This document shows positions 8,757-26,322 of a stretch of DNA of 64,000 bases, in pieces. The DNA lies in contig OX638329.1 in NCBI GenBank assembly GCA_951812755.1, forward strand, positions 4,100,522 through 4,164,521. The letters run 5' to 3'. The position numbers and the translations under genes are program-made. Below the pieces are notes generated by a model. It was not told the DNA's origin, made no database searches, and saw nothing but the letters and a program-made list of their open reading frames with translations. Source of the DNA: an uncultured Latescibacterota bacterium. Its GTDB lineage: Bacteria; Latescibacterota; UBA2968. Within the stretch, counting starts at the first letter, position 1; every line of letters starts with the position of its first letter.

Positions 8757-9626
8757 ATGAAACCAACCTTTCAGAATGTCCCTTATGGCCCTCACGAGAG
8801 AAATGTGCTTGATGTTTATAAGGCACCTTCAAAAAGTCCCTCTCCTATTTTTGTATGGATACATGGCGGCGGATTCTACTTTGGGGACAAATCTGAAAGA
8901 GGACCTCGTCTCGTTCCCATCCTGTTTGACCAGGGCATATCTCTTGTTACGATAAATTATCGCTTTTCTCAACATGCAATATATCCCGCCCCCTACTACG
9001 ATTGCAGACGAGCATTTCAATTTGTCAGATATCACGCACCATCCTGGGGCCTGGATCCGCAACGTATCGCCGCAGGTGGATTGTCTGCTGGGGCTGCTAT
9101 GTCGCTCTGGTTGGGGTTTCGTCCTGATATGGCTGAACCAGAAAGCGATGATCCTATCGAGCGGGAACCGACCAGACCTGCCTGTATATATATAATAGAT
9201 GGACAAACCTCATACGATCCTCGTTTCATCTCACAACTGATAGGTGGCAAGGTCCACATTTATGAACAAGTATTGGCGGACCTTTTTGGTGTACCGAGGG
9301 ATGTTTGGCCACATCTTGATGAGCGTGCCGTGCAGTTAGTGGAGGACGGATCTCCGATCAATTTTCTCTCTCAGGATGCTCCGCCTGTTCTATGTGCTTA
9401 CAATTTGTCCCGGGAACATGAACCAGACATCCATCACCCTCAATTTGGAGATGATCTTAAAGAACGCATGGATACGCTAAATTTAGAATGCACTGTCGTA
9501 GTGAATAATGAAGATGCTATCAAGCGGTTGAACAAAGACCAACAGGATGGCAGTACCGGCCAAATAACTTTCATGGATGGGACGTATCCGGGTGATTTCC
9601 TGGCTCGTCACTTGAATGTCTCCTGA
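8757..9626 (+). CDS. Alpha/beta hydrolase (HSL-type esterase/lipase)
   Basis: 289-residue carboxylesterase-like protein. The oxyanion-hole motif WIHGGGFYFGDKSERG and the nucleophile elbow GGLSAGAAM (GxSxG) identify the hormone-sensitive-lipase-like branch. The expected acid and histidine should lie in the last third, where HEPDIHHPQFG is visible, but the end (FLARHLNVS) is short, so the catalytic His is not certain. No signal peptide. It is the last gene before the cassette-like region; a folded site follows its stop. Confidence 0.8.
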   Translation: MKPTFQNVPYGPHERNVLDVYKAPSKSPSPIFVWIHGGGFYFGDKSERGPRLVPILFDQGISLVTINYRFSQHAIYPAPYYDCRRAFQFVRYHAPSWGLDPQRIAAGGLSAGAAMSLWLGFRPDMAEPESDDPIEREPTRPACIYIIDGQTSYDPRFISQLIGGKVHIYEQVLADLFGVPRDVWPHLDERAVQLVEDGSPINFLSQDAPPVLCAYNLSREHEPDIHHPQFGDDLKERMDTLNLECTVVVNNEDAIKRLNKDQQDGSTGQITFMDGTYPGDFLARHLNVS

Positions 9627-9664
9627 AATCATTTATAAAAAACTGAACGAAGCAAAACCAAATT

Positions 9665-9755
9665 CTACGGTATGCGCTACGCGGCATACGCCGCTTGGCC
9701 CTATCGGGCAACCCCTTGACAAGCTCGGGGTTCGCAAACCGGAGAATCGTTAGAT
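9665..9755 (+). other. Degenerate attC-like recombination site
   Basis: Ends in the box GTTAGAT (9749-9755), preceded by an imperfect stem in which AACCCC (9710-9715) pairs with GGGGTT (9727-9732), and by the GGTATGCGCTACGCGGCATAC palindromic segment. The right half resembles an integron attC (L' then R'), but no clear RYYYAAC box is visible on the left. The site abuts the ribosome binding site of the following methyltransferase. Confidence 0.4.
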
Positions 9756-9777
9756 GAAATGCGACCGAGGAGAATCC

Positions 9778-10594
9778 ATGTTTCCGAGCACGCTTGAATA
9801 TAACCGCCGGGGGAACGCGAATATCTGGATGGATCCGCATGTATCTCAAGCGATGCTCTCTGCTCACTTGGATCCAGATTCGGATGGGGCCAGTCGAAAG
9901 CCTCATATTATCAGCAAAACGATTGACTGGGTGGCGGAGCAATGTAAAGGAACAAAACGCATCTTGGATCTAGGATGTGGCCCAGGCTTATACTCAACCA
10001 AGCTGGCAACCAAAGGGTTCAGCGTAACCGGTCTGGACATTAATCCGATGTCTATTGAGTACGCCAAGAAGAGTGCCCGAGAGAGCGATCTTCGGATCCA
10101 CTATGAATGCGGAGACTATCTCTCTGATCCTATTGAAGGCATGTATGACGCGGCTATCTGCATCTATTGCGACTTTGGTGCTTCTCTTGCCACGTGAACA
10201 AATGACGTTTCTGAGTCGCGTTCATGAACACCTCGTAAAGGACGGATTGTTTCTCTTCGACATATTTGGGCCACGCTTGAGCGACAGCAAATGCGAATCA
10301 CGAGACTGGAACTACGTTTCCGGTAGCGGATTTTGGGCGAACTCTTCGCACTTCTTGTTGAACGAGAGCAAACACTTTCCGGACCAGAGAGCTTGGGGAA
10401 TACGAACAGTAGTACTGGAGGACAGGCAAGATCCAAAGGAGTACATCACGTGGGACCACTATTTCCCCGAAAGCGAGATCGAGAGCCTATTGGCAACGAA
10501 TGGCTTCGACATAAGTTCAACGCAAGGCGATATAGTCGAAGCGAACGACTTTGCTAGCGAGGATGTCTTGTTCGTGGCATCAAGGAAGCGATAG
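9778..10594 (+). pseudogene. Frameshifted class I SAM-dependent methyltransferase
   Basis: Two overlapping frames make one methyltransferase. The first (ATG 9778 after GAGGAG) has motif I, RILDLGCGPGLYSTKLA, and the GLDINPMSIEYAKK segment. It breaks after YCDFGA, and the second frame continues with LLPREQMTFLSRVHEHL and ends at 10594 (EDVLFVASRKR). Removing a single T near 10184 restores one continuous frame of about 271 residues. The break could be a real mutation, a sequencing or assembly error, or, less likely, programmed slippage. First gene of the cassette-like array. Confidence 0.75.
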
Positions 10595-10604
10595 CTCGCA
10601 CTTC

Positions 10605-10673
10605 ATCTAACAGCACGGTTCGCGCTATGGCACATTCGCGCCTTCGCGTAGGGCACTGGAGAAAAAGCTAATG
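10605..10673 (+). other. Weak attC-like site
   Basis: Begins with ATCTAAC (10605-10611), a good RYYYAAC box, and contains CG-rich imperfect inverted segments (CGCGCTATGGCACATTCGCG). The right end, GCTAATG, departs from GTTRRRY. The ATG of the next gene overlaps its last bases and GGAG inside the site may serve as ribosome binding site. Probably a decayed cassette boundary. Confidence 0.4.
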
Positions 10674-11384
10674 ACTGAAGTCAGATACAACAGGCCAATT
10701 TGGGCGAGTAGAATCCCTCGGCAGAAAATCGCGGAGCTCTATGCTAAGGACGCTCAAGGAATCCGGGATGAAGAGCTAATCAACGAAGTGGGGATTGGCC
10801 TGCTTGTGAGAATCGAGAGTATTTTCCAGGCAAGGGATGCGAACAACGGTCTCGCGAGATGTCCCCACTGCCAACGCGGGCTTGAGCACAACTTCGATAA
10901 GGAGTTCTTACTTCGCTGTGAATCATGTAACTGGGAATTGACGTGGGCTGAATACCAGAAGTCGTTTCGAGGCAAACACCTTATTGCATCCGGCATGACA
11001 GCGTTCCTTAAAGAATACGTGCAAAAGTATAGGGTCGCGCGATCAGTTCAAGAAAAAATGATCCTGATCGATACTCTGATTCATAGGTATCATTGGGAAC
11101 TTGAGGGAGGACTGACTCGGCCTGGAGCCACAGATTTAATTGGAGGAAGACAGCATGAAATTATAGATTTTCTAAACAAGCTTTCATATGGCGAAAAGAG
11201 TAGCCCTGAAATCTTAGCCAATAGAGCAGAATGGATTCAGAAGGTTAAAAAAAGCCAACGGCATCGCAAAACAAAAAGAGAGGAACGGCAGAAAAAAAAG
11301 GAAGAGCGGGAGAGAAAGAAGAACTTAAAGAGAAAAGTTAGACAACAGATGTTGGCGCAGAGGGACAAATCGAGTAAGTCATGA
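10671..11384 (+). CDS. Zinc-ribbon protein with basic coiled-coil tail
   Basis: 237 residues, function unknown. A CPHC...CESC pair (about residues 64-87) is a zinc ribbon; before it is a helical segment (ELINEVGIGLLVRIESIFQA). The last 50 residues are almost entirely Lys, Arg, Glu and Gln (RQKKKEERERKKN), a highly charged helix suited to nucleic acid binding. Single-cassette gene between two attC-like or hairpin elements; the start overlaps the upstream site. No known family recognised. Confidence 0.6.
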   Translation: MTEVRYNRPIWASRIPRQKIAELYAKDAQGIRDEELINEVGIGLLVRIESIFQARDANNGLARCPHCQRGLEHNFDKEFLLRCESCNWELTWAEYQKSFRGKHLIASGMTAFLKEYVQKYRVARSVQEKMILIDTLIHRYHWELEGGLTRPGATDLIGGRQHEIIDFLNKLSYGEKSSPEILANRAEWIQKVKKSQRHRKTKREERQKKKEERERKKNLKRKVRQQMLAQRDKSSKS

Positions 11385-11722
11385 TTTTCCACCGAGTTGT
11401 GTTCAGTCGGGGGTGAATCTGAAGAATTGAGATGGAACCTCTGCATGCCTGAAAAGGCAGAAAACCAGAAAAGCAGATTGTCTATGACGCTCGCGGTATT
11501 CACGCCCTGATCTCAGGGGTTGAAAGTGGCGAAACCACCCCTTCGCGACTGCCGATAACAAGGGACCTGCGTACATCCTCCCAGCCCGATGCCACCCAAG
11601 CCGCCCTAAAAAACAGGGCGGCTTCGCAGATCCCGACCGTTACACGCAAGCGGCGCAGAATTACCCAACAACCCCACTCCGACAAATTGTGCACAAGAAA
11701 AATCGGAAGACAGGTAGGCTTA
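11385..11722 (+). other. Non-coding stretch with a strong hairpin
   Basis: No convincing gene. It contains AAGCCGCCCT (11598-11607) pairing with AGGGCGGCTT (11615-11624) across a seven-base loop, a ten-pair hairpin without a T run. Further right, TTACACGCAAGCGGCGCA and a CCAACAACCCCACTCC motif recur in nearly the same form at 20801-20840; they look like cassette-boundary remnants. Confidence 0.45.
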
Positions 11723-12322
11723 ATGCGTTTTCACTTTATTCGTCACGGTAAGAGAGATCGCAAGATCGGCGATCCTTCATTGACGTCAAAGGGTCGAGAA
11801 GAGGCAGAACGACTCGCAAGGAAGTTAGCATCAAACGGCATCGCACGAATCTTCAGCAGTCCACTGGCGCGAACAAGACAGACAGCAGAGATCATCGCCA
11901 CCATTTTGAATCTTGAAGTTACTGAAGATTCACGGCTATGTGAACGAATGAATTGGGGTGACATCGAAGGCCAATCTTTCGATGAATTCATGGCTCAGTG
12001 GGAGCGTTGTAATAGAGAACGAGATTACCGACCCAGTGTTGGCGATTCAAGCATTGAGGCTGGCAGACGCATTGAGGCATTTGTTTCCAATTGCTATCTT
12101 CAGTCATCCAAAGATACTGTAATTGGGGTGACCCATGGCGGTGTCTTGGCAGACTTCCTTCTCAACGTTTTTTCGTCTGAAGAACTGAGTCGCATTAGTC
12201 CGAAATTCTGCAATGCCCCATACAGTGGTGAAGTAGTGCGTGAATGCTCCGTTACGACAATTGCATACGATGGCAACCAATATCGACTCGACGCTGTTGG
12301 AGCCATCTTGTTTGAGAATTAA
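11723..12322 (+). CDS. Histidine phosphatase superfamily protein
   Basis: 199 residues from ATG 11723, right after AGGTAGG; an ATG at 11687 in frame would add 12 untypical residues. The phosphoglycerate-mutase-like signature MRFHFIRHGKRDRK carries the catalytic RHG; the second conserved region ARIFSSPLARTRQTAEII and the later GVTHGGVLADFLL with the second catalytic His are in place. Likely acts on a small phosphorylated metabolite. Its last 11 codons reappear at 48954-48986 in front of the second methyltransferase copy, so this gene and the next formed a unit that was partly duplicated. Confidence 0.88.
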   Translation: MRFHFIRHGKRDRKIGDPSLTSKGREEAERLARKLASNGIARIFSSPLARTRQTAEIIATILNLEVTEDSRLCERMNWGDIEGQSFDEFMAQWERCNRERDYRPSVGDSSIEAGRRIEAFVSNCYLQSSKDTVIGVTHGGVLADFLLNVFSSEELSRISPKFCNAPYSGEVVRECSVTTIAYDGNQYRLDAVGAILFEN

Positions 12323-12364
12323 CTTTGGGCAGGAGCCACCGGCATTATCCTGGAGGCATACAAC

Positions 12365-13123
12365 ATGAGTGACGGGTCTGGAGCCGATCTTGAAACCGTA
12401 CCTGTCCGGCAAGGCTACGCTCGTTGGTCTGAGACGTACGATACGCAGGACAATTCCTTGATCATTTTGGAAGAGCCGCTATTGCGATCCCTGTTGGGGG
12501 ATGTCCAAGAACTCAGCGTCGCTGATATCGGCTGCGGTACGGGACGTCATACCCTCTATCTGTCAGAAGCAGGTGCCAGGGTGACCGCAATTGACTTCGC
12601 TCCAGAAATGATGGCGCAAGCTATTGAGAAGACGAAAGACCACGATGTGCGATTCGTTACCCATGACCTGACAGAGCGCCTCCCATTCGACAATGACACC
12701 TTTGATCGCGTCCTATGCTGCCTCGTCCTGGAGCACATTTCTGACTTGGATCCAGTAATCAGAGAAATGGCGAGGATCTGTCGGCCAGAAGGTTTCATTC
12801 TCATCTCAGAACTCCACCCAACGATGCGTCTCCGTCGCCTACAGGCTCGCTTCACTGATATGAAGACAGGCCAAACAGTTAACGTCGAGGGCTATCACCA
12901 CCAGATCGCGGACTATGTCAATGCAGCCTTGAAGGCCCAACTTCAGATTGATCGCATTGAGGAGCATCTTGCTGACGAATGCCTACTTGAGAAGTCGCCC
13001 AGAGCGAAGGAGTACTGGACTGAGTTTCCGGAGGATTTTGATCTTGGTTGGCCGATGTTATTACTCATGAGGTTGGAAAAACCTCTATCCGGTCCCCACA
13101 GGGTGCTTAACACGTCCACATAG
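12365..13123 (+). CDS. Class I SAM-dependent methyltransferase (copy 1)
   Basis: 252 residues. SAM-binding motif I is VADIGCGTGRHTLYLSEAGA, followed by VTAIDFAPEMMAQAIEK, FDRVLCCLVLEHISD and the GFILISELHP motif, a UbiE/COQ5-like small-molecule methyltransferase. GGAGG stands seven to eight bases before the ATG. A close paralogue lies at 49029-49775; they differ mostly by point substitutions and share flanking sequence on both sides. Downstream a GCTTAAC box (13105-13111) overlaps the end of the gene. The C-termini differ (HRVLNTST here, PPSGA in copy 2). Confidence 0.88.
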   Translation: MSDGSGADLETVPVRQGYARWSETYDTQDNSLIILEEPLLRSLLGDVQELSVADIGCGTGRHTLYLSEAGARVTAIDFAPEMMAQAIEKTKDHDVRFVTHDLTERLPFDNDTFDRVLCCLVLEHISDLDPVIREMARICRPEGFILISELHPTMRLRRLQARFTDMKTGQTVNVEGYHHQIADYVNAALKAQLQIDRIEEHLADECLLEKSPRAKEYWTEFPEDFDLGWPMLLLMRLEKPLSGPHRVLNTST

Positions 13124-13203
13124 AACTGCATCCGTTCTGGTGTTTATGTAATCGAGCCAACAAGCTCGTAAGAGGCCGTTTTGGGTAGAACGCTACAGCC
13201 ATC
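13105..13203 (+). other. Decayed attC-like left half
   Basis: GCTTAAC (13105-13111) is followed by CACGTC; a small hairpin CGAGC-CAACAA-GCTCG lies near 13160. No GTTRRRY box closes the site, only GAACGCTACAGCC before the next gene. The same GCTTAACACGTC follows methyltransferase copy 2 at 49770, so the box belongs to the duplicated cassette. Confidence 0.35.
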
Positions 13204-14601
13204 ATGGGGGCTGCCTTGCTGAACACCAAGTTGATCTTTGTGGAAGGAATCCCAGGCTCTGGGAAGACCAATACTGCAGAGTTCCTTTGCTCACAGCTTG
13301 AACGGAACGGGATACCAGTCGCACACGTTCACGAGAAGGATCCAAATCACCCAACTCGGATGGAGTGGCAAGGCGAGGCCTCCCGGATAGAAGAGAGTCT
13401 GGAAAGATGGCGGGACTTCGCATCCTCAAGAGCGCAGAGCGATTCGGTCACCATCCTTGATGGCCAACTATTTCATCGCAATACGGCGGAGTTGTTCTTC
13501 AACGACGTTGAACTGGGCACAATCGCGAACTACGTTCGAGACGTCATTGATGCAGTTTCGCAACTCAACCCGACTGTGGTTTATCTGATTCAGTCTGACG
13601 TGCCGAGTTTCCTGCGACGTACCTGTGATGACCGAGGAAATCGCTGGGAGAACACCCAGATCAACCTGAAGGTCACCACACGGGCTCGGGCTAAGAGGAA
13701 TGGGTGGAGAGGATTCGCTGGCTACGCCCAACTCTATACCGCGTTTCGAGAAATGACGGATGAGCTAATTGGCAAGCTGGACGTCCGAGTATGCAGAATC
13801 AATATGACCGACCATCAATGGTCTGAATACCTGACGACAATCCTTTCCTACCTATCACCAAGCCTCCAGGAGAAGGACATATCGCACAATCGTCTGGCTG
13901 CCACGTACGGTGATCTATGCATCTTCCGGTGCGATGGTCTTCATAGCATTACCCAATGTGAGACCATCACCAATGTAGCGCGAGATCTGAAGCTTATTCG
14001 GAATCCCGATCTGCTCAACCTGGATGGGCTCAATGTAGAGAGAGTAGGCAGAGACATTTACATGCTCTGCAACGACTCACTACAGAGCATCACATCTCTA
14101 AACAGAGTCAAAACTGTACCAAGGGATCTCCGCGTGGACGGCCATCCAAAGCTGGCGTCGCTGGAGGGGCTTCATAGGATCGAGTCTATTGGTGGTCGCT
14201 TGCTGATCGTATCTAACCACTCCCTGCGAGACCTGCAGGGGCTGCGAAGTCTAAGGTACGTCTCCCGCGGCATACATGTTACGGCCAACAACAACCTAGC
14301 CGTCCTCGATGGTCTGCAAGCACTAAAGGAAATCGGAGGCTTCCTCTACATACGCCAGAACGAACAACTGGAGAGTCTGGAAGGACTGGAGCATCTTGCA
14401 TCCATCGGCGGCCATTTGGAAATCAGCAACAATCCGCGACTAAGAAGCCTGAGAGGACTGGAGAACCTAACTCACTTGGGTGGCCGGCTTATTATAGGCA
14501 GAAATGATATCTTGAGTCAGGCGGAGATCGATGGCTTCGTGGCGCAAATCAAAGAGAGAGGTTTCTCGGGGGACCTTTCTACAGAGCTTCTCCCTCCATA
14601 A
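13204..14601 (+). CDS. P-loop kinase fused to receptor-L-like repeats
   Basis: 465 residues. The N-terminal 220 residues look like a nucleoside- or thymidylate-kinase-type P-loop domain: KLIFVEGIPGSGKTNTAEFL (Walker A at residues 15-22), VTILDGQLFH (Walker B-like) and VVYLIQSDVPSFLRRT. From about residue 230 to 465 are repeats of the type LxxLxGLxxLxxIGGxLxIxxNxxL, the pattern of receptor L / leucine-rich domains. Such repeats usually occur on extracellular proteins; there is no signal peptide here, so the fusion is probably cytosolic. Substrate unknown. It occupies one cassette-like slot between degraded attC-like sites. Confidence 0.75.
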   Translation: MGAALLNTKLIFVEGIPGSGKTNTAEFLCSQLERNGIPVAHVHEKDPNHPTRMEWQGEASRIEESLERWRDFASSRAQSDSVTILDGQLFHRNTAELFFNDVELGTIANYVRDVIDAVSQLNPTVVYLIQSDVPSFLRRTCDDRGNRWENTQINLKVTTRARAKRNGWRGFAGYAQLYTAFREMTDELIGKLDVRVCRINMTDHQWSEYLTTILSYLSPSLQEKDISHNRLAATYGDLCIFRCDGLHSITQCETITNVARDLKLIRNPDLLNLDGLNVERVGRDIYMLCNDSLQSITSLNRVKTVPRDLRVDGHPKLASLEGLHRIESIGGRLLIVSNHSLRDLQGLRSLRYVSRGIHVTANNNLAVLDGLQALKEIGGFLYIRQNEQLESLEGLEHLASIGGHLEISNNPRLRSLRGLENLTHLGGRLIIGRNDILSQAEIDGFVAQIKERGFSGDLSTELLPP

Positions 14602-14616
14602 CGAAGTGTGCACATC

Positions 14617-14671
14617 GCATAACACGACTGTACACTGTTTCGGCTATTCGTCCTTCGCCCAACAGTTAGCG
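14617..14671 (+). other. attC-like site
   Basis: GCATAAC (14617-14623) opens and GTTAGCG (14665-14671) closes a 55-base element; inside, GACTGTACACTGTTTCGGC and TTCGCCCAAC give an imperfect fold. Box spacing and orientation (RYYYAAC left, GTTRRRY right, next gene on the plus strand) fit an integron cassette junction. The APH fragment begins four bases after it. Confidence 0.5.
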
Positions 14672-14674
14672 AAA

Positions 14675-14968
14675 ATCGCGGCAGTTAATCCTCTTTGGCA
14701 GGTCCCCAGGCCACCATTGGCTTCCAGCTACTACCTGGAGAGAATCAGAGACACCTTTCCAGATATCATGTGGACAAATTACAGAAGAGTTCAGACCATT
14801 GCCGATCATGTAATTATTCTGTTGGACAATGGCATCGCTTTCCGATTCGAGAACGATGTGGATACAAATCTGACGAGGGATCGGATCGTCCTGGATGCCC
14901 TTAGAAGCAGCCTGAAGGCAATACCCATTTTACTCTACCCTTTCCAAGCTAATTGCGGTATTTTATAA
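14675..14968 (+). pseudogene. Truncated aminoglycoside-phosphotransferase-like gene
   Basis: The translation IAAVNPLWQVPRPPLASSYY to ALRSSLKAIPI matches the first 90 or so residues of the intact gene at 34156-35088 with few changes, missing a two-residue Pro-Asp insert. Similarity begins at ATCGCGGCAGTTAATCC directly after the attC-like site and stops abruptly after GGCAATACCCATT, where unrelated sequence (LLYPFQANCGIL) follows to a stop. This is a 3'-truncated duplicate without a clear start codon of its own. Confidence 0.8.
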
Positions 14969-15011
14969 GCATGGTCAAAGGTCACGCCCTTAGAGCTACT
15001 TGGAGACAACA

Positions 15012-15185
15012 ATGAAAAAGAATCAGAATGACCCAGTCATAGACGAAATTCGGAAGATACGTCACCGTATCTCAGCACGTTTCGACCATGATCCTGCACA
15101 ATTGGTCGCTTACTACCTGGAATGCCAGAAAGAGTATCAGGATCGATTGATAGGATCCAAACCAGTAACTGAAAATTTAGTTTGA
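15012..15185 (+). CDS. Small helical protein, possibly toxin-antitoxin associated
   Basis: 57 residues from ATG 15012, six bases after GGAG; an in-frame ATG at 15000 is less well placed. The sequence NDPVIDEIRKIRHRISARFDH followed by DPAQLVAYYLECQKEYQDRL is a compact amphipathic helix pair; similar small proteins are common beside toxin genes in environmental genomes, but I cannot name a family with certainty. The downstream AATCCC...GGGATT hairpin near 15270-15300 may terminate it. No partner gene is visible. Confidence 0.5.
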   Translation: MKKNQNDPVIDEIRKIRHRISARFDHDPAQLVAYYLECQKEYQDRLIGSKPVTENLV

Positions 15186-15313
15186 TCGTTTGATATTCTA
15201 CACTATTGACTCCTGTAGGTATGCCGCGTAGCAAATTTAGTCTGCCATTATCAACTATTTCTACACCATAAAATCCCTGCGAGATAAGTTTTCTGGCGGG
15301 GATTCTTTTCAAG

Positions 15314-15343
15314 AGCGGTTCGGGCACGGCGAAAACGTTAGGC
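15314..15343 (+). other. Right half of an attC-like site
   Basis: GCGGTTCGGGCAC followed by GGCGAAAAC and GTTAGGC (15337-15343) is almost identical to the right half of the complete site at 42111-42184 (GCGGTTCGGGCACGGCAAGAACGTTAGAC). The left half is missing, so this is a broken cassette boundary in front of the sulfotransferase. Confidence 0.55.
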
Positions 15344-15377
15344 ACCATTGGCCCAGAGAGGGGTTTCATTTTCCCAA

Positions 15378-16280
15378 ATGGCTTCGTCTATGAACTCCGT
15401 GGCGCAGATTCGCCCGATTATCGTCATAGGGCCGGAACGAAGCGGAACCTCCGTGGCCGCGGAGATGATCTTGACGTGGGGGGCATATCCTGGAGAACCC
15501 GAGAGTCTCCGAAAGGCTGATGTCCAGAATCCCAGAGGCTACTTTGAGTATCTCCCTATCTGGGATTTCTTGTCCGATTTGGGTGTGAATTGGTGGGACC
15601 CTGGCTTCCAGGAGAGGCTTTCCGAAAAAGCTTCCGATCCGCATCATCGGCAGAGGGCCGACGAGCTGGTGGCTCAGATGGAGAAGGGAGGAAGGTCCTG
15701 GGTCTGGAAAGATCCGGCCCTCAGTTTCTTTCTTCCGTTCTGGAACCGTATCTGGAAGGATCCCATCTACGTCGTATGTGTTCGAAATCCATCAGATACT
15801 GCAAGATCGTGGGCGAAGTTCACACTGCCCAGCGATGCACGGGACAAGGATCCATTTATCCAAGCCAATCTCTTGAGGTGGCACTACATCATGCTTCTCA
15901 TCCTCAGCAACACGGAAGATGTGGAATCGAAGATTTTTCTGTCGTATGAAAAGCTGATGAAAGATCCTGCCGACGAGGCCCGAAAGCTGGCGATGTTCCT
16001 CAACGCTGAGTGCGGAATGATAGATTCGGGTTCGTTGAGTGCCTCTGCGATGGCCGGGGCCGTTGATCCACAACTTTGGCACAATCGTAGCGGCGCAACA
16101 CCGGAGGCCAACTTACACTTGAAAAATCTCTATGGCTTCGTTGCTGGCAAAACTGTGATCTCCTCAGAACCATTTCGTCCAGAGGATTTTCCATTGCCTC
16201 CTAGATGGAGAGAAACTGTAGTCACAAGCGAGCGGCAAGCAAGGATCTACAGAGACATGTCTGGGCCAACGAACGCCTAA
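15378..16280 (+). CDS. Sulfotransferase family protein
   Basis: About 300 residues. The 5'-PSB loop of PAPS-dependent sulfotransferases is visible as PIIVIGPERSGTSVAAEMI, and the 3'-phosphate-binding segment as YVVCVRNPSDTARSWAKF; a FLSYEKLMKDP segment follows, also typical. The start is uncertain: ATG 15378 (MASSMNS) or an upstream TTG at 15348. The family transfers sulfuryl groups to hydroxyls or amines of glycans or small molecules; the acceptor is unknown. The stop overlaps the opening box of the attC site at 16275, as is usual for cassette genes. Confidence 0.8.
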   Translation: MASSMNSVAQIRPIIVIGPERSGTSVAAEMILTWGAYPGEPESLRKADVQNPRGYFEYLPIWDFLSDLGVNWWDPGFQERLSEKASDPHHRQRADELVAQMEKGGRSWVWKDPALSFFLPFWNRIWKDPIYVVCVRNPSDTARSWAKFTLPSDARDKDPFIQANLLRWHYIMLLILSNTEDVESKIFLSYEKLMKDPADEARKLAMFLNAECGMIDSGSLSASAMAGAVDPQLWHNRSGATPEANLHLKNLYGFVAGKTVISSEPFRPEDFPLPPRWRETVVTSERQARIYRDMSGPTNA

Positions 16281-16355
16281 CACGAGCACCCCCGGCTCCG
16301 GTCATTTAGCCTTCGCCCAACCCCTACGCGGTTCGCAAGCCATAAAACGTTAAAT
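16275..16355 (+). other. attC-type recombination site
   Basis: One of the three best sites: GCCTAAC (16275-16281), about 67 bases of GC-rich imperfect dyad (GAGCACCCCCGGCTCCGG ... CTACGCGGTTCGCAAGCC), then GTTAAAT (16349-16355). Box consensus, length (81 bases) and orientation towards the next plus-strand gene match integron attC sites. The left box overlaps the 3' end of the sulfotransferase and a GNAT gene follows 34 bases later. Confidence 0.7.
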
Positions 16356-16389
16356 GTAATGAGAAATACATATTATCGGGATCACTCCA

Positions 16390-16839
16390 ATGATCAGAAC
16401 TGCAAAAGCTGAAGAAAATGAAGAGTTGAGTAGCCTTGCAATGCGCTCAAAAGCGCATTGGAACTACGATGCAGATTTTCTTGAAGCATGCCGCCAGGAT
16501 CTAACTTATAGCCAACAAGATATTAACCATCACACCGTCTATGTGGTAGAAGAAATGGGACAGGTCGTCGGCTTTTATAGGTTAGAAATCAGGGAGAATA
16601 GACTCGAACTGTCTGATTTTTTTATTGAGCCAAGCAAAATAGGCCAGGGATATGGGAAGAGACTTTGGGATCATGCGATTGATCAAGCGAGGCAGTTAGG
16701 TTTTCACAAAGTGTCTATCCACTCAGACCCGTATGCGGAATCATTTTATTTATCAAGAGGTTCCGTTCGAATTGGAGAAGTGCCTTCCGGGGTCATTCCG
16801 GGGCGCACTATTCCCTTATTAGAATTTGCACTTAAATAA
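16390..16839 (+). CDS. GNAT family N-acetyltransferase
   Basis: 149 residues. Acetyl-CoA-dependent acyltransferase with the diagnostic pyrophosphate-binding motif A, FFIEPSKIGQGYGKRLWDHA (Q/RxxGxG/A as IGQGYG). N-terminal MIRTAKAEENEELSSLAMRS and VVEEMGQVVGFYRLE are also typical. The substrate is unreadable. Preceded by a complete attC and followed by a left-half box ATTTAAC at 16871, the exact reverse complement of the upstream GTTAAAT, as expected for one cassette. A 62-bp piece of this gene reappears at 26323-26384. Confidence 0.88.
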   Translation: MIRTAKAEENEELSSLAMRSKAHWNYDADFLEACRQDLTYSQQDINHHTVYVVEEMGQVVGFYRLEIRENRLELSDFFIEPSKIGQGYGKRLWDHAIDQARQLGFHKVSIHSDPYAESFYLSRGSVRIGEVPSGVIPGRTIPLLEFALK

Positions 16840-16870
16840 GAGCGCCTGAAACAAGACGAGAGATCACTAC

Positions 16871-16940
16871 ATTTAACACAGCGAATCACGCGGCGGCGCT
16901 GCGGATCGATCTGCCGGAACACCTGCCTATCGGTGGTCAT
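16871..16940 (+). other. Left half of an attC-like site
   Basis: ATTTAAC (16871-16877) then ACAGCGAATCACGCGGCGG; no GTTRRRY box follows before the next gene. The box complements the R' box of the preceding site (GTTAAAT at 16349). The right half appears to have been replaced by sequence leading into the APH-like gene. Confidence 0.4.
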
Positions 16941-17894
16941 ATGAAAGAAGCTGAACAGGCTCTGGGAACCTGGGATATCTCCGTCCAGTCCATCAGAGCA
17001 GCCACAGTCTCAAAGGTGTATCACGTCAAGTCAACCACAGGCGAGCGCTTCGTTCTGAAGAACATCGGTGCGCCTGATGTGCTTGTACGTACTGAGACCT
17101 GGTTCCGAGTGGCTCGTCATGTTCATGAGTCAGGTCTTCCCATAGCCTACCTGGTCGAGACCAATATGGGCTCGTTTTATAGCAGAATCGACTCGTCTAT
17201 CTATATTCTAATGCCCTTCCTGCCAGACGACGATCCCAACTTTTATGGCCCAGATTCAGCCCCTCTCTACCAAACTATAGGAGCAGCCTACGGTCGATTG
17301 CACGCCATCTTGGCCGACTTTGACGGGCCCATAGAAACGTGGGAGGACAACGCCTACGACCCACTGTTCAAAGGCTATGTGCCGGAGGCACTGCCCAAAC
17401 TGCCTGGTGAGGCGAGACGAAGGGTAAAGGACGCGCTGAGTGAAGTTAAAGACCACCTGCGGATGATCGCGTCTTCGTTGCCGATGGAGCCCATATTCCA
17501 GGACGTACATCGCGGAAACGTTCGGATGGTCAAGGGTGAGTTTTGTGGCTTCATCGACTGCGATCACATCTGTATCGGACAGCGGATTGACGACATCACG
17601 ACAGCTCTGATTTCTATGATCAAGTACCGAGGTCGCAATGGCCTGCCTTCAGAGGATGAGACTGATGAGCACCGTCACTGGTGGTTGGCTCACTTTGGCG
17701 AGTTTCTGACATCTTACAACGCGGTCAATCCGCTTCGTCCGCTGGAGAGAGACCACATGCTGTATGTAATGCTTGCGCGCTGCCTCCCAGAACTTGAGGA
17801 GATAGAAGGAGGAACTGCCAGTTTGGAACTCATGGATTGGTTCTATGCTCATCGAACGGAGATAGAGATCGGAATTATGTCGATTGGCGGGTAG
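16941..17894 (+). CDS. Aminoglycoside-phosphotransferase (APH)-family kinase
   Basis: 317 residues with the APH/choline kinase-like fold: YHVKSTTGERFVLKNI (ATP-binding Lys), the catalytic loop QDVHRGNVRM (HxxN pattern) and the metal-binding GFIDCDHICIGQRIDDI. Family members phosphorylate antibiotics, choline, homoserine or sugars; nothing here proves resistance. It is related in fold to the genes at 34156 and 52021 but not a close copy. Start ATG 16941 lacks a strong ribosome binding site. Confidence 0.85.
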   Translation: MKEAEQALGTWDISVQSIRAATVSKVYHVKSTTGERFVLKNIGAPDVLVRTETWFRVARHVHESGLPIAYLVETNMGSFYSRIDSSIYILMPFLPDDDPNFYGPDSAPLYQTIGAAYGRLHAILADFDGPIETWEDNAYDPLFKGYVPEALPKLPGEARRRVKDALSEVKDHLRMIASSLPMEPIFQDVHRGNVRMVKGEFCGFIDCDHICIGQRIDDITTALISMIKYRGRNGLPSEDETDEHRHWWLAHFGEFLTSYNAVNPLRPLERDHMLYVMLARCLPELEEIEGGTASLELMDWFYAHRTEIEIGIMSIGG

Positions 17895-17947
17895 AATGCA
17901 GTGTATGGTAGCGGGTCATCACCATTGGAGTCGAGAAAGATCACCGG

Positions 17948-18424
17948 ATGAATCATTCAGACATTTCTTGCCGAGTTGCGACCAGATCAGACGTCGAATC
18001 TCTGCTAAATCTCTTTCCGCAGATCACGAGCCGCCCCCATAGTCTTTTGGCCAAAACTCTCGGACTCGAAGAGTCGATCCGGATCTTCGATGAGATGTCT
18101 GACTACGGCAACATATTCATCGTTCTGGGAGAATCGGACAAGGAAATAGTCGCCGCGCTCATAATGGCAATCGTTCCGAATTTTACTTACGAAGGGCGCC
18201 CTTGGGCTATCATCGAGAATGTCGTTGTGGCACGCGAACAAAGGGGCAAGGGATTTGGGAAGAAGCTGATGACATTCGCGATGAACCTTGCCGAAGAGAA
18301 GGGCTGCTACAAGCTACAGTTACTCAGCGGTCCAAACGAAGATCAGGTGGGATTCTATAGAAGCCTTGGAATGCAAGATGGGACGAGTCGCGGATTTAAG
18401 AAGTATTTCGTGGCGCGCGAGTAG
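17948..18424 (+). CDS. GNAT family N-acetyltransferase
   Basis: 158 residues. Motif A is visible as IENVVVAREQRGKGFGKKLMTFAM (R/QxxGxG as RGKGFG), followed by AEEKGCYKLQLLSGPNEDQ and FYRSLGM, the typical C-terminal half. Likely acetylates an amine of a small molecule. It follows the APH-like gene by 53 bases with no recognisable attC between, so these two may share a cassette or the site has decayed. A gene-tail remnant begins directly after its stop. Confidence 0.85.
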   Translation: MNHSDISCRVATRSDVESLLNLFPQITSRPHSLLAKTLGLEESIRIFDEMSDYGNIFIVLGESDKEIVAALIMAIVPNFTYEGRPWAIIENVVVAREQRGKGFGKKLMTFAMNLAEEKGCYKLQLLSGPNEDQVGFYRSLGMQDGTSRGFKKYFVARE

Positions 18425-18438
18425 GCTCACATCTCAGG

Positions 18439-18531
18439 CATTACAAATTTGAACCTGACGCAAAATTCTTTCTGAGGAACCTGGAAGAAGAGATCAAAGA
18501 CTTTACTTCAAAGACGAAATGGGTTGACTGA
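18439..18531 (+). pseudogene. 3' remnant of an unknown gene
   Basis: An open frame without start reads HYKFEPDAKFFLRN then LEEEIKDFTSKTKWVD before TGA (18529-18531). The segment 18471-18513 recurs at 20267-20310 with one inserted base, on the other side of the FAD-oxidoreductase gene. It appears to be the tail of a gene lost by rearrangement. Confidence 0.5.
18471..18513 (+). repeat. Direct repeat, left copy, flanking the FAD gene
   Basis: About 43 bases including GGAAGAAGAGATCAAAGACT; a nearly identical copy stands at 20267-20310, 52 bases after the stop of the FAD-dependent oxidoreductase. The pair brackets a gene of about 1.6 kb and could mark an insertion or a tandem duplication. Confidence 0.75.
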
Positions 18532-18597
18532 TACGAGTGAAGATGATTAGACTCCTTCTTCCCTTCACCGCGGACGAACGCACGGAGGTCACAGCCG

Positions 18598-20220
18598 ATG
18601 TCGAATCTCAAATACTTCCATCACGACTGGATTGAACCTACAACTGAAATCATCGAAACGGATGTCTGCATCTACGGCGGCTCGTCAGGAGGTATCGCTG
18701 CAGCCGTCACAGTCGCACGGGCCGGGCTACGTGTCGTCATCCTCCAGCCGGGCCAACACATCGGTGGCATGACAACCGGCGGACTCGGGTGGACGGACTT
18801 CGGCCGCAAGCACGTTATCGGTGGACTGAGCCGATCCTTCTACAACCAGGTCGGACAGCACTACGGACAGAATGAGGAGTGGCAGTTCGAGCCTCACGTC
18901 GCCGACGCTGTTTTCGATGCGTGGGTTTTGGAAAACGGTATCGATGTCCGGTACGGTCAGTATCTGGACGCTGTCGAATCTATTGATCGACGTATCGTTT
19001 CCATCACGCTCCTTGGCGGGCTCCGGGTCCGCGCCAAGATCTTTATGGACTGCTCCTACGAGGGGGACCTGATGGCGAAGGCTGGCGTCTCCTTCCACGT
19101 CGGGCGTGAGGCGAATGAGATCTACGGTGAGACGCTCAACGGCATCCAGGTGCGAGAAAAACATCAGTTCGGTCTTACCGTAGATCCCTACGTGGAACCG
19201 GGTGACCCGGACAGCGGGCTGCTGCCTCAGATCGAGGAGACCGATCTGACGGCACGACAGGGCGAAGGCGATCACCGTGTGCAAGCCTACTGCTTCCGCG
19301 TATGCATGACCGATGATCCTGCGCTCAAGATCGACTGGACTAAGCCGGACGCGTTCGATCCTGCCCAGTATGTCCTTGCGACACGCTGGTTCAACACTGT
19401 GGGCGGAGACAGCCAGAACCCGAATCACAGCGCCGACCCGGTTGCCAACATAAGCGACAGCGGAGTACCCAGGAAGTTCGACATCTTCCCGAACAGAACA
19501 CCCGGCGGTTACTGTAAAACCGATACCAACAACAACGGCCCCATCAGCAGTGACTTCATCGGGAGATCGTGGGGATGGCCCGCCGCCAGCTATGAGGAGC
19601 GGGAGGCCATATTCCAGGCGCACGTCAATTACCAGCGTGGTCTCTACTGGCATCTGGCCAACGAACCGGCGATACCCCAGCGCGTGCGTGACGCCTACAG
19701 CCGCTGGGGTCTATCCAGTGACGAGTTCACCGATACCGAGCACTGGCCGCATCAATTGTATATCCGCGAGTGCCGCCGGATGATCGGCGACTACGTCATC
19801 ACGGAGCACGACTGCTATCAGAAGTCAGTCGCAGAGGACTCGATCGGGATGGGTAGCTACACCATGGACTCGCATAATTGCTCCCGATTCGTACGTGTCG
19901 AAGGAGGCTTAGCATGTGTCCTCAACGAGGGGGATGTGCAGATCCCCCCGACCAATCCTTATCCCGTAAGCTACCGGAGTATCGTGCCAAAGAGGGGGGA
20001 GACAGCAAATCTGTTCATCCCCGTATGCTTCTCGGCCTCTCACATATCCTACGGTAGCGCGCGCATGGAACCGGTCTTCATGGTCCTGGGAGAGTCTGCT
20101 GGGCTGGCGGCAAGGCTGTGTCTGGATGCCGATTGCGACACGCAGGATCTGCCGTACGATGAGTTACGCCCCGAGTTGTTGAAGGCAGCGCAGATCCTCG
20201 AGTTGCCCGACACCCGGTAG
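18598..20220 (+). CDS. FAD-dependent oxidoreductase (FAD_oxidored family)
   Basis: 540 residues. N-terminal dinucleotide-binding motif CIYGGSSGGIAAAVTVARAG (GxSxGG variant), then GQHIGGMTTGGLGWTDFG, a conserved segment of this family, and the C-terminal FIPVCFSASHISYGSARMEP with GESAGLAARL. Such proteins are abundant in polysaccharide-degrading bacteria, often beside sulfatases; the substrate is unknown. GGAGG is well placed before the ATG. The higher GC and lack of attC suggest separate acquisition; direct repeats flank it. Confidence 0.85.
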   Translation: MSNLKYFHHDWIEPTTEIIETDVCIYGGSSGGIAAAVTVARAGLRVVILQPGQHIGGMTTGGLGWTDFGRKHVIGGLSRSFYNQVGQHYGQNEEWQFEPHVADAVFDAWVLENGIDVRYGQYLDAVESIDRRIVSITLLGGLRVRAKIFMDCSYEGDLMAKAGVSFHVGREANEIYGETLNGIQVREKHQFGLTVDPYVEPGDPDSGLLPQIEETDLTARQGEGDHRVQAYCFRVCMTDDPALKIDWTKPDAFDPAQYVLATRWFNTVGGDSQNPNHSADPVANISDSGVPRKFDIFPNRTPGGYCKTDTNNNGPISSDFIGRSWGWPAASYEEREAIFQAHVNYQRGLYWHLANEPAIPQRVRDAYSRWGLSSDEFTDTEHWPHQLYIRECRRMIGDYVITEHDCYQKSVAEDSIGMGSYTMDSHNCSRFVRVEGGLACVLNEGDVQIPPTNPYPVSYRSIVPKRGETANLFIPVCFSASHISYGSARMEPVFMVLGESAGLAARLCLDADCDTQDLPYDELRPELLKAAQILELPDTR

Positions 20221-20266
20221 AAGAAAGAGCCCGAAGGCGGTGGTCGCTCTCGAAACTTGAGGAATC

Positions 20267-20310
20267 TCTGAGGGACCTTGGAAGAAGAGATCAAAGACTT
20301 TACTTCAAAG
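20267..20310 (+). repeat. Direct repeat, right copy, flanking the FAD gene
   Basis: Matches 18471-18513 apart from one substitution and one inserted T. In the left copy it is the tail of an open frame (LEEEIKDFTSK); here the insertion breaks that frame. Confidence 0.75.
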
Positions 20311-20314
20311 TGGA

Positions 20315-20452
20315 TTTCAAGATCGTGATGCAGCACTAGATGCTCTAACCAAACCAAGTCAATACCCGATAGCTCTATTTCATTGCCAACAACTGGCAGA
20401 AAAGGGTATGAAGGCGGTTTTAAGATCATCCGGGTTCAGTGAAAAAAAATAA
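20315..20452 (+). pseudogene. Gene remnant, unknown
   Basis: A 45-codon frame without start reads FQDRDAALDALTKPSQYPIA then LFHCQQLAEKGMKAVLRSSG before TAA. The composition is protein-like; HCQQLAEKGMKAVL resembles HEPN-type helices, but this is too little to assign a family. It directly follows the right direct repeat. Confidence 0.35.
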
Positions 20453-20556
20453 AAGAGATAAGGCATGATCTCAGGAGATTACATAGAGAATGTTTTCAAA
20501 AATACCCTGTATTTGGTACGGTTACTCACGAGGCCCGAAGTCTTTCCTCAATTGGG

Positions 20557-20754
20557 ATGAATGTTCGTTATGATAATCCTGTTATTTATCCTCACCAAGC
20601 AGTAAGAGCTTATTGGGCGGGATTAAGGGTAACTGCTTTATGTACCTGTATCATATGTAGAATCAATAGAAGAGTAATCAAGGATGTAAAAGCTCAAGAT
20701 TCAAAGGAGCCAATTCAGTTAGTAGAAGGCGTTATGGCCTACAGAGAATTATAA
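20557..20754 (+). CDS. Small hypothetical protein
   Basis: 65 residues, MNVRYDNPVIYPHQAVRAYW to VEGVMAYREL, with a CTCIICRIN cluster of cysteines. No recognisable family and no strong ribosome binding site. A 31-codon frame (ATG 20466, MISGDYIENVFKN) lies just upstream; both could be pieces of one broken gene. Coding status uncertain. Confidence 0.3.
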   Translation: MNVRYDNPVIYPHQAVRAYWAGLRVTALCTCIICRINRRVIKDVKAQDSKEPIQLVEGVMAYREL

Positions 20755-20878
20755 AAGAAAATTCCGTTTGAATACGCGGGGTCGTAAATAGAGAGCATGT
20801 TACACGCAAGCGGCGCAAGAGTTTCCCCAACCCCACTCCGTGACAGTACAACTTGAAGTAGAGGTAGAAATCTGCGGC

Positions 20879-20968
20879 ACCTAACATATCCATTCACGCT
20901 ATGGCCCATTCGGCATTTAGCCTCCGGTAACCCGCTTCGCGGTTTCGCAAGTGGAGAGAACGTTACCT
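20879..20968 (+). other. attC-like site with cassette tail
   Basis: ACCTAAC (20879-20885) opens and GTTACCT (20962-20968) closes a 90-base element with the inner dyad CCGGTAACCCGCTTCGCGG and TTTCGCAAGTGGAG. The 70 bases spanning the left box (about 20840-20912) are closely similar to 48205-48275, including a short coding tail (VQLE..AEI), so two cassettes shared this 3' end. The right box departs from consensus. Confidence 0.5.
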
Positions 20969-21068
20969 GAAATTGGCGCACAGGCAAGTGTCCAACCACT
21001 CCCCAAAAAATCAAAATCGCGCACAAAAACAATAACCACTACATTTATGTTGGCCCCTTTAAGATGAT

Positions 21069-21621
21069 GTGTTTAGCGGTTGGGCGGTATCGCAGAAGGC
21101 CAAAGAGAATCCTGAACTCTACGAGCCAGGCAAGAACAAAGACAGCCCGCCGCCTACCAAAGATCAAAAGAGAGGGGCAAAATTAGAGGGTCTAAAACAG
21201 ACCATCAAAAAAAGACCCTCTGGAACGCCTGGACAAAAACGAACATTCAAGACCCGGCCAACTGGCGATGCGGCGTTTGAGCCTATCGACAACATTCCAG
21301 AGTCGGATTTCTTTCTATATTTTCACGCACTTTATGATGTCGTTCTGCCGTCTCTCAAACCGTCAGATCGTCTGTCCCGTCTGATCCTATGTGTGCTTTT
21401 CTGGAAATCTCATGGCAACCATCAGAACTTTTGTCAGGTGTCCTTCAGAGAGCTTGAGCGCATTACTGGCGCGGGGCGCAATACTATTCGCAGGAATCTG
21501 GAGCCATTGATCAAGGACGGCTGTGTGTATTATCTCTGATGGGTATAGGGAAGCCACTACGTATGGCTTGCGGATCCCGCTGGAGTCAAATAGAGGGTCT
21601 AAAATAGAGGGTCTAAAATAG
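21069..21621 (+). pseudogene. Winged-helix DNA-binding protein, frameshifted
   Basis: The first frame gives 156 residues: a low-complexity basic N-terminus (KKRPSGTPGQKR) and a winged-helix domain, VSFRELERITGAGRNTIRRN then LEPLIKDGCVYYL, ending at 21539. A one-base shift lets it continue SDGYREATTYGLRIPLESNR into GSKIEGLK and a stop at 21619-21621, inside the repeat array. Homologous-looking proteins usually carry repeated GSKI-type linkers after the domain, so the second frame is probably the original C-terminus. Start chosen at ATG 21069 without a clear ribosome binding site. Function likely regulation or plasmid/phage maintenance. Confidence 0.55.
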
Positions 21622-21744
21622 AGGGTCTAAAATAGAGGGTCTAAAATAGAGGGTCTAAAATAGAGGGTCTAAAATAGAGGGTCTAAAATAGAGGGTCTAA
21701 AATAGAGGGTCTAAAATAGAGGGTCTAAAATAGAGGGTCTAAAA
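21591..21744 (+). repeat. Eleven perfect 14-bp tandem repeats
   Basis: TAGAGGGTCTAAAA is repeated eleven times without a mismatch. An exact twelfth copy lies inside the upstream winged-helix coding sequence (21184-21197) and a partial inverted copy (AGACCCTCT) near 21213. As 14 is not a multiple of three, each unit changes frame and contributes TAG stops. It may be an expansion of a GSKIEGLK-coding linker or an iteron-like binding array for the adjacent DNA-binding protein. Confidence 0.95.
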
Positions 21745-21890
21745 CTTACACACTGTAATTGACGCGCGACCTCGAAAGGAAGGAACACTTGTGGAAAATT
21801 TATTCGACAGGAACTTGAAAGCCCTCTATATTGGGACAACCCACCATTCTTTCCACAGTCTGGAAAGAGCCATATTCACAGGAGGTAGAA

Positions 21891-22373
21891 ATGAAAACTC
21901 GTGTATTTGCATTAGTTGTCTGTTTGGGGATCGCGTCAGCGGTCTTCATGGCCGGATGTGCATCAATTATGCATGGAACATCACAAGATGTTGGTATATC
22001 AAGCACGCCGACAGGAGCCACAATTACTGTTGATGGCCAAATTAAAGGGACAACCCCAGCTGCTGTCAAACTTAGCCGCAAGGATACCCACACTGTTAAA
22101 ATTGAATTGCCTGGCTATTTGCCATTTGAATCAATGATCACTCGCCATGTAAGTGGCTGGGTGTGGGGAAATATTATTTTTGGTGGGCTAATAGGGCTTG
22201 CTGTTGATGCAATGACTGGTGGCCTTTACAAATTGAGCCCAGAACAACTACAAGCGACACTTGCAAAGGAAAATGCAGGGATTCTTTACAACAAGGACGC
22301 AATCTATGTATCAGTTGTTTTGCAGGCCGATCCGTCATGGAAACAAATAGGAAATCTAGTTCCCCAACAATAA
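21891..22373 (+). CDS. PEGA-domain lipoprotein
   Basis: 160 residues from ATG 21891, after AGGAGGT. The N-terminus is a lipoprotein signal (KTRVFALVVCLGIASAVFMA then GC, lipobox around residue 22). A PEGA-type beta domain follows: VGISSTPTGATITVDGQIKG, TTPAAVKLSRKDTHTVKIEL, PGYLPFE. A hydrophobic glycine-rich segment (WGNIIFGGLIGLAVDAMTGG) comes next. Probably anchored to the inner leaflet of an outer membrane or to the cytoplasmic membrane; PEGA domains may bind surface polymers. The in-frame ATG at 21831 would add a non-signal extension. Confidence 0.82.
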   Translation: MKTRVFALVVCLGIASAVFMAGCASIMHGTSQDVGISSTPTGATITVDGQIKGTTPAAVKLSRKDTHTVKIELPGYLPFESMITRHVSGWVWGNIIFGGLIGLAVDAMTGGLYKLSPEQLQATLAKENAGILYNKDAIYVSVVLQADPSWKQIGNLVPQQ

Positions 22374-22475
22374 TCTGCCAAAAGCCATTTGGCTGGCATC
22401 ATTATGTGGACTTGACCTGTTTCGGCGGGTACCTTCGCAGGCTTAAAACCCAAGCCCTAAATACTCCACCAAAAC

Positions 22476-22583
22476 GATGCTGTTGCCGAATTGGTCGAGA
22501 GGTAGTCAGCAGTTGTAAAAACGGCTATTTGTGGCCTGAATACAAGCTCTGTATGGACAGAATTCGAATTCGGCAACAGCATC
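22476..22583 (+). repeat. Inverted-repeat-bounded element, copy 1
   Basis: GATGCTGTTGCCGAATT (22476-22492) and its perfect reverse complement (22567-22583) bound a 108-bp element. Its interior (GTTGTAAAAACGGCT) is found inverted in copy 2. The left arm and interior read DAVAELVER then VVKTA in one frame, so the element may derive from a gene fragment arranged head-to-head, or be a small MITE-like unit. Confidence 0.7.
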
Positions 22584-22780
22584 TGAAGCGGGGTAACTCC
22601 ACTTGTATGAGTTAGAAAAGTACCTCACTCTCTCTAAAAACTGGTCGGCAAGCAACGCGAATTGTCCGAATTTCGGGGCGTCACCGGCTCCCCAGGCGAT
22701 TTTTAGAGGGATTTTGGTGGCTTCCCCAGGCAGGCAAAGAATTTAACGACAAGGCCGCCCACAAGTGGGAAACGGCACTA

Positions 22781-22816
22781 AGAAAGCCCGTCAGTCAAAC
22801 TGACAGGCTTTCTTTT
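22781..22816 (+). terminator. Rho-independent terminator
   Basis: AGAAAGCC-C-GTCAG (22781-22794) pairs with CTGAC-A-GGCTTTCT (22800-22813), with a five-base loop and a T-rich tail (TTTTG). No coding gene directly precedes it; it may end the transcript that starts at the lipoprotein gene or serve a lost gene. Confidence 0.6.
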
Positions 22817-22928
22817 GTACTCGAGTTTTTTTAAGGCATTCTTCCATCGCCTACCATGCGCCGATGGCTTATGAAAAGCTGCATCTATCACAGGCTTGAT
22901 ACACAAGCCCTAAAGTCTCCACTGAAGC

Positions 22929-23058
22929 GATGCTGTTGCCGAATTCCTAATTATGTCTCAATGCAACTAAACATAGGGCTTACAGAGCCTGCATTTCGGC
23001 TCTAAACAGCCGTTTTTACAACCGTAGATTTCCTCTCGAACAATTCGGCAACAGCATC
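22929..23058 (-). repeat. Inverted-repeat-bounded element, copy 2
   Basis: The same 17-base arm GATGCTGTTGCCGAATT (22929-22945) and its reverse complement (23042-23058) bound 130 bp. Read on the minus strand the interior resembles copy 1 (TCGAGAGG, GTTGTAAAAACGGCT). The two copies therefore have opposite orientation and share a flanking CAAGCCCTAAA..CTCCAC sequence on the left. Confidence 0.7.
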
Positions 23059-23343
23059 CTTTAAGGCTTCACTCGAAGGGGACCACGCCAACTTCAGGTA
23101 ATAAACGGTTGTCGGCTTTGAACTATTCGGCTCTTCATCCAAATACTTGGGCATAGAGAAAATTTCGCTGGAAATGACCTGCACAGGAAGCTATATTGTA
23201 TAATAGTAGCCAAACCGAAGCCGAACCAAACAGATTATTCTGGAAGACCTGACTCCAGATGAAGAATTGGCCTGAAGAGGCACTGGAACACTGGCAGATC
23301 AAGCGGGACAAAACACGACGTGGAATAGTAGAGGTGATCAGCG

Positions 23344-23553: not shown

Positions 23554-23583
23554 GTTTATCATAGAACATGTTTCGTGATATAG

Positions 23584-23620
23584 ATCCCCGTTCAGGAGGT
23601 TATCTGACGGGGATTTTTTT
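23584..23620 (+). terminator. Rho-independent terminator
   Basis: ATCCCCG-T-TCAG (23584-23595) pairs with CTGA-CGGGGAT (23604-23614), with one bulged base and an eight-base loop, followed by a run of seven T. It ends the small gene at 23344-23553. Confidence 0.8.
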
Positions 23621-23897: not shown

Positions 23898-23923
23898 CTG
23901 CCTGTCGTTCACGGGAGGAAACC

Positions 23924-26305: not shown

Positions 26306-26322
26306 GAAGACGAAAAACAATA

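Follow-up and report, generated by a model that had tools for sequence, protein, structure and literature searches.

A thymidylate-kinase-fold protein with a C-terminal leucine-rich-repeat solenoid in a reordered cassette array of Latescibacterota

Small nucleotide kinases function without an extra domain. Those with the thymidylate-kinase fold have a closed pocket for small acceptors, to our knowledge no protein substrates have been described for the fold, and the thymidylate kinases themselves carry a signature DR motif directly after strand beta-3. Leucine-rich-repeat (LRR) solenoids are mostly ligand binders, the ligands typically being proteins or glycans, and cassette arrays are a setting that can carry defence genes. 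The literature searches recovered no paper on the PRK06761 family, no paper on a fusion between a thymidylate kinase and LRRs with a P-loop, and nothing that was on topic by title for integrons in Latescibacter; as far as these searches reach, the kinase-LRR fusion described here is unpublished. LRR proteins are listed among the eukaryotic-like proteins in a study of sponge-associated Latescibacterota (PMC12993501).

The window, i.e. the complete stretch of 64,000 nucleotides that was analyzed, comprises bases 4100522-4164521 of the genome of an uncultured Latescibacterota bacterium (6.53 Mb on a single contig). The kinase-LRR gene starts with ATG and encodes a product of 465 amino acids, the first residues of which are uncertain as the start codon is not conserved among the orthologues. 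An initial reading of the bare sequence (the original prediction) had described the product as a Walker A kinase followed by L-domain-type repeats, without signal peptide and located in a gene-cassette slot. The two-part nature of the protein was recovered in the open reading frame and in the profile matches, and the frame is open in four further genomes: the fusion is real. The features of the gene and its surroundings are collected in Table 1.

Table 1. Coordinates (window numbering) of the kinase-LRR gene, its parts and the surrounding array.
Feature	Position	Strand	Basis
Kinase-LRR gene, whole	13204..14601	+	open reading frame, Pfam and NCBIfam profile matches, orthologues
Kinase domain, residues 1-222, predicted thymidylate-kinase fold, PRK06761-like	13204..13869	+	profile, alignments, model, Foldseek, VIA-align
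Walker A GIPGSGKT, residues 15-22	13246..13269	+	invariant among four orthologues
D86, end of beta-3	13459..13461	+	kinase alignments, model; putative role
R139, R144, G145, W148 of the LID region	13618..13647	+	alignments; putative role, from nucleotide kinases
LRR / L-domain-like solenoid, residues 238-453, 24-residue repeats	13915..14562	+	Pfam, model, VIA-align, periodicity
C-terminal cap, residues 439-459	14518..14580	+	by eye; helix 439-451 in model
Cassette array (outer end tentative), predominantly single-gene units, chiefly on +	8757..55301	+	comparison with congeners
Mobile unit holding the kinase-LRR gene	13163..14657	+	homology to the arrays of congeners
Degenerate attC-like site after the gene	14614..14675	+	by eye; not recovered in the window by the R1 model
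attC-like repeat	9674..9758	+	R1 training member
attC-like repeat	16274..16358	+	R1 training member
attC-like repeat	20879..20971	+	R1 training member
attC-like repeat	38152..38234	+	R1 training member; bottom-strand fold z -4.39
attC-like repeat, RYYYAAC...GTTRRRY ends	42110..42187	+	R1 training member

On profile evidence, the kinase half lies near the uncharacterised PRK06761 family (NF005250). Two separate stretches of it align with the two ends of the profile (positions 2-51 and 126-277), the best covering residues 67-218 (E 5.2e-34), and it possesses the P-loop, R..RG.W and GF.G motifs. The protein differs from the family in three respects: the score amounts to 117.6 bits where the curated cut-off is 270, the stretch between the matched parts is missing, and a C-terminal LRR part of some 220 residues is added. 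The curated cut-off was exceeded in none of the 64 genomes of the phylum. According to the alignment the same three motifs are also found in a relative of 277 amino acids that is encoded on viral contigs. Sequence searches of the PDB yielded only P-loop stretches and apparent chance matches and no further relative. A model of the kinase half alone, for which the input consisted of five aligned sequences (two of them one and the same viral-contig protein), reached a pLDDT of 78.8 and a pTM of 0.79. Comparison of this model to the PDB with Foldseek retrieved 80 matches at E 0.001 or below, the best being a thymidylate kinase (E 8.1e-6), and VIA-align aligned 189 residues with dTMP kinase 4rzx (Z 14.4, rmsd 3.4). 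The modelled fold is thus of the thymidylate-kinase type and agrees with the small-molecule or nucleotide kinase that had been foreseen.

What the kinase half shares with the thymidylate kinases (TIGR00041; PDB 4rzx, 5xb5) is the fold and the P-loop, but not the family signature. It scores only 19.2 bits to TIGR00041 (cut-off 83.25), over residues 8-44, and residues 85-91 after beta-3 read LDGQLFH, without the DR motif, whereas the dTMP kinases of the congeners read SDRYVDS at this place. A separate true dTMP kinase (162.7 bits) is encoded elsewhere in the genome. Identity as a dTMP kinase is ruled out by these three observations taken together, and a role as replacement dTMP kinase was rejected in view of the last. 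The four close orthologues show no variation in the Walker A motif, E44, H49-P50, W69, D86, Q130, D132, R139, R144, G145, W148 and GF.G; of these, the Walker A motif, E44, H49-P50, W69, D86, R139, R144, W148 and GF.G are largely retained in distant relatives as well, and G15, G18, G20, K21, P50, W69, R144, G145 and G170 are among the positions that are invariant across a wider alignment of eight rows. The conserved residues are also kept in the structure model. By analogy D86 is a candidate catalytic base or metal ligand; its position holds D or E in eight of the nine rows of both kinase alignments together and His in the fusion protein of genome G007. We consider it likely that the kinase half is catalytically active, but we infer this activity, since the Arg of the dTMP kinases is missing after beta-3 and the G007 fusion carries the His. 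Like the NLR/STAND proteins, the window protein combines a P-loop and LRRs in one polypeptide; it differs from these in its predicted nucleotide-kinase fold and in that no further effector domain was found. Both STAND-type Pfam families stayed below their cut-offs (nSTAND3 18.1 against 27.2 bits, NPHP3_N 16.5 against 24.8) and touched the protein only at the Walker A motif (residues 5-42 in the case of nSTAND3).

The repeats recur every 24 residues, a period at which the self-identity is 0.236 (next best 0.148 at 30; periods 18-31 scanned), and they match Pfam Recep_L_domain (PF01030) above its cut-off of 21.8 bits (33.4 bits, E 5.5e-8), best over residues 366-438. In a full-length model, which had three near-identical sequences as input, the ten-residue blocks 261-460 of the LRR part have a pLDDT of 58-88; the kinase is poor in this model (blocks up to residue 240 at 24-41), so that the relative placement of the halves, or a contact between them, is not readable from it. 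VIA-align aligned 214 residues of the repeats with a receptor LRR structure (Z 14.5, rmsd 3.6); repeat folds easily reach such Z values, and the match therefore indicates an LRR solenoid and no function. Foldseek with the whole full-length model returned nothing at E 0.001. The profile match and the modelled solenoid together bear out the L-domain-type repeats that had been read from the sequence.

Similar repeats occur in LRR-only PF01030 proteins of the phylum, which are 30-40% identical over the repeats in the loci examined and have a similar cap by eye. The 12 LRR-only loci that the protein search of the genomes returned as loci have a hydrophobic stretch near the N-terminus (12 of 12, several being near-copies of each other; some with a lipoprotein-type Cys by eye) and no Walker A motif, while the window protein has the Walker A motif and lacks the hydrophobic stretch. 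The best 15-residue mean hydropathy is 1.24 in the kinase-LRR protein and 1.80-2.85 in the LRR-only loci, on a crude measure that considers the 90 N-terminal residues of the open frame, may include residues upstream of the true start and is no trained signal-peptide predictor. On this measure there is no sign of an exported or surface location, in line with the absence of a signal peptide that had been claimed. As a separate observation, a piece of 39 bases from the LRR coding region (window 14315-14353) recurs at 97% in G001:C160, and 30 bases of it recur at 100% in G010:C68; the recurring pieces adjoin the region of an aminoglycoside-phosphotransferase (APH) fragment, in an otherwise unrelated coding context.

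A protein search of 60 genomes, including that of the window, gave some match in 28, but both halves occurred in one open frame in only five of them (G000, G003, G005, G007 and G010), all of a single genus that is represented by 11 genomes. Three orthologues from congeners are 92-93% identical to the window protein; the G007 fusion is 33% identical, measures 532 residues from the nearest ATG and has more repeats. Two fusion orthologues were found in a scan of GTDB named contigs with exact peptide patterns, which reaches close relatives only, and a PRK06761 search of 64 genomes of the phylum revealed no further fusion among the translated matches (the G014 match, a frame of 234 residues, was left out). 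The architecture is new, though both its parts are known, and within the genomes searched it is confined to one genus. The five fused members cluster together (support 98/97) in a kinase tree of 11 rows; this fits a single fusion event, although the length of several branches calls for caution. Purifying selection acts on both halves: dN/dS is 0.21-0.51 for the kinase and 0.16-0.37 for the LRR part (six pairs each). The fusion appears dispensable, given that six of the 11 genomes of the genus, most of them incomplete, have no intact copy. In G004 only a remnant is left, without the 5' part and with the equivalents of window 13362-13475 and 14519-14656 directly joined; a frameshift affects the last residues of the G003 copy. 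Outside the genus, in four genomes of other families of the phylum (G015, G022, G043 and G024), what follows the kinase is another stretch, about 90-140 residues long, which in three of the four resembles DUF3471 weakly and below threshold (E 0.08-0.23); the C-terminus therefore seems exchangeable. Another kinase copy, G022:C35, has no extra domain at all (open frame of 235 residues). It may be mentioned that the record of L023 (JAPPIE010000005.1) is titled Gemmatimonadota, yet its genome was placed in the window's genus here.

The gene-cassette slot of the original prediction was substantiated and could be narrowed to a unit that is reordered between congeners. Collinearity of the window with G003, G005 and G010 ends at about 8690-8695, and beyond that point the units stand in other orders. 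G003 carries the sulfotransferase, partial methyltransferase, kinase-LRR, zinc-ribbon, GNAT and APH units in a permuted order. Of the units that G010 has in common with the window, kinase-LRR stands nearest to the flank; zinc-ribbon, oxidoreductase, GNAT, GNAT and APH units come next. G005 keeps the window order over the run 11635-14656, only the surroundings being different, and G004 shows still another order. Unit boundaries follow from the ends of homology, with the start at 13163 in G010 and the end at 14613 (G010), 14656 (G005 and G004) or 14657 (G003). The neighbouring genes in the array are acetyl-, sulfo-, methyl- and aminoglycoside-phosphotransferase-like.

A repeat is shared between the unit ends, though it does not occur at every breakpoint. 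We built a sequence model, R1, from five intergenic repeats of the window that were picked by eye. In the stretches of the congeners it retrieved eight further copies at E 5.7e-5 or better (five in L070 and one each in L071, L072 and L074; none in L073), including one directly after the kinase-LRR gene of G003 (L070:7211-7308, 26.7 bits). At E 0.01 it found only the five training sites in the window's own genome, among the 150 of 412 first-look candidates that were scored. A strict scan for attC ends gave four matches, where 40 block shuffles averaged 1.7 and reached at most five, with a single good site (that with the RYYYAAC...GTTRRRY ends), and one of the five sites folds unusually well; with the scan in no clear excess over the shuffles and only one such fold, 'attC-like' is the appropriate term. 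The array thus resembles integron arrays in its mostly single-gene units, their reordering in congeners and the attC-like repeats. It differs in that none of the 11 genomes of the genus contains an integron integrase above the TIGR02249 cut-off. The head of the array in G002 does encode a tyrosine recombinase of 376 amino acids, some 230 bases after the collinear flank (L090:6100-7230, on G002:C51). It scores 214.2 bits to TIGR02249 (cut-off 265), with profile positions 174-234 unmatched, and 215.7 bits to the XerA-type NF040815 (cut-off 220), and its N-terminus shows a weak, sub-threshold likeness to HARP. It is probably an array recombinase of an integron-like system in Latescibacterota.

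Our preferred reading, which we put forward tentatively, is that of a cytosolic phosphotransferase in which the LRR arm recruits the substrate or a partner that carries the substrate. The kinase half would transfer the gamma-phosphate of ATP onto a substrate that is not dTMP; the LRR arm would deliver this substrate, or its carrier, to the active site. The occurrence of another C-terminal domain at the same place in relatives suggests that the kinase is a common catalytic base with exchangeable specificity modules, and from the array neighbours the most likely use would be to modify chemically one particular compound, small or peptide-like, in an environment that varies. A function of the repeats as target-recognition module, as had been proposed, is plausible. 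If the LRR part indeed picks the substrate, the protein would illustrate how a small nucleotide-type kinase can be redirected in nature by a modular binding arm, and the relatives with another arm provide a ready comparison; the protein would also supply a first role for PRK06761-like kinases and would show what kinds of genes circulate in the cassette array of an uncultured phylum.

It is less probable, and in our estimate doubtful, that the LRR part has no contact with the substrate and acts as an oligomerisation, stability or tethering module, with specificity set by the kinase's own pocket. Such a scaffold would agree with the G022:C35 relative and with small nucleotide kinases in general, which need no extra domain, and the differing C-terminal domains of the relatives could be scaffolds equally. 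Among the four orthologues, conservation of the concave LRR face does not significantly exceed that of the remainder (3 of 43 positions vary, against 24 of 177 elsewhere; p 0.31), which likewise fits a scaffold. However, LRR solenoids mostly bind ligands, and eight to nine repeats or so, maintained under purifying selection, would make a costly stabiliser. We regard as unlikely the bolder proposal that a thymidylate-kinase-fold base is re-targeted by C-terminal swaps, phosphorylates a protein, glycan or peptide compound selected by the LRR part, and is spread in its variants by cassette shuffling. Quite unlikely, too, is a kinase directed at macromolecules that would phosphorylate the very protein or glycan bound by the LRRs: these are the typical LRR ligands, and the export-type N-termini of the LRR-only relatives are as expected for surface binding proteins, but the closed pocket for small acceptors and the lack of known protein substrates argue against this use of the fold. 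That the gene is a passenger in decay, fused by chance within a cassette array and now without function, is very unlikely; the truncated and internally deleted G004 remnant, the genomes without intact copy and the frameshifted G003 end would fit, but dN/dS is well below 1 in both halves and the frame has stayed open in five genomes, in one of them at 33% identity. A defence or stress sensor of the NLR/STAND kind, with the LRRs detecting an invader and the NTPase part signalling or killing, is highly improbable: apart from the shared P-loop and LRRs in one cytosolic protein, the array setting and the nSTAND3 contact mentioned above, it could only draw on PADLOC matches of the G007 fusion (weak, LmuB and mad8, 19.3 and 14.2 bits) and of the neighbouring methyltransferase (mad2, 74.2 bits, over a widespread methyltransferase domain), while the window's kinase-LRR protein itself had no PADLOC match at E 0.01 and its N-terminal fold is that of a nucleotide kinase. 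Of the original prediction, then, the kinase with recognition-type repeats in a cassette stands and the sensor or defence role has little backing. Neither of the outcomes that it had named as refuting, repeats that do not fold as an L-domain or a kinase part without its catalytic residues, came about in the models.

A phage origin was considered and rejected. There was no match in 50,697 phage records, the PHROGs matches were weak and limited to the P-loop region (best E 1.1e-4, residues 7-43), and the whole protein found no relative on viral contigs, where the kinase alignment recovered two contigs with one identical kinase, the 277-residue protein introduced above, lacking LRRs. Among 72,556 plasmid records three weak partial matches were found; two of these concern the LRR half, and the third (Cohnella, 24.6% identity) concerns the kinase half.

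Several further repeats were observed within the array. The methyltransferase unit is present twice (window 12284-13116 and 48948-49781, 91.7% identical). A truncated APH-like piece follows the kinase-LRR gene (14675-14929) and has its counterpart at 34165-34425, within a longer APH-like open frame (34048-35088) that is 93.5% identical over the common part. A short element just before the kinase-LRR unit (13116-13162) recurs at 82-89% in nine of ten congeners and once elsewhere in the window's own genome, and is perhaps another type of recombination site. By eye, a tandem repeat with the unit TAGAGGGTCTAAAA was noticed at about 21590-21745, and the kinase-LRR locus of G007 (L073, i.e. G007:C44:86000-105000) was seen to lie among acetyl-, methyl-, sulfo- and phosphotransferase-like genes.
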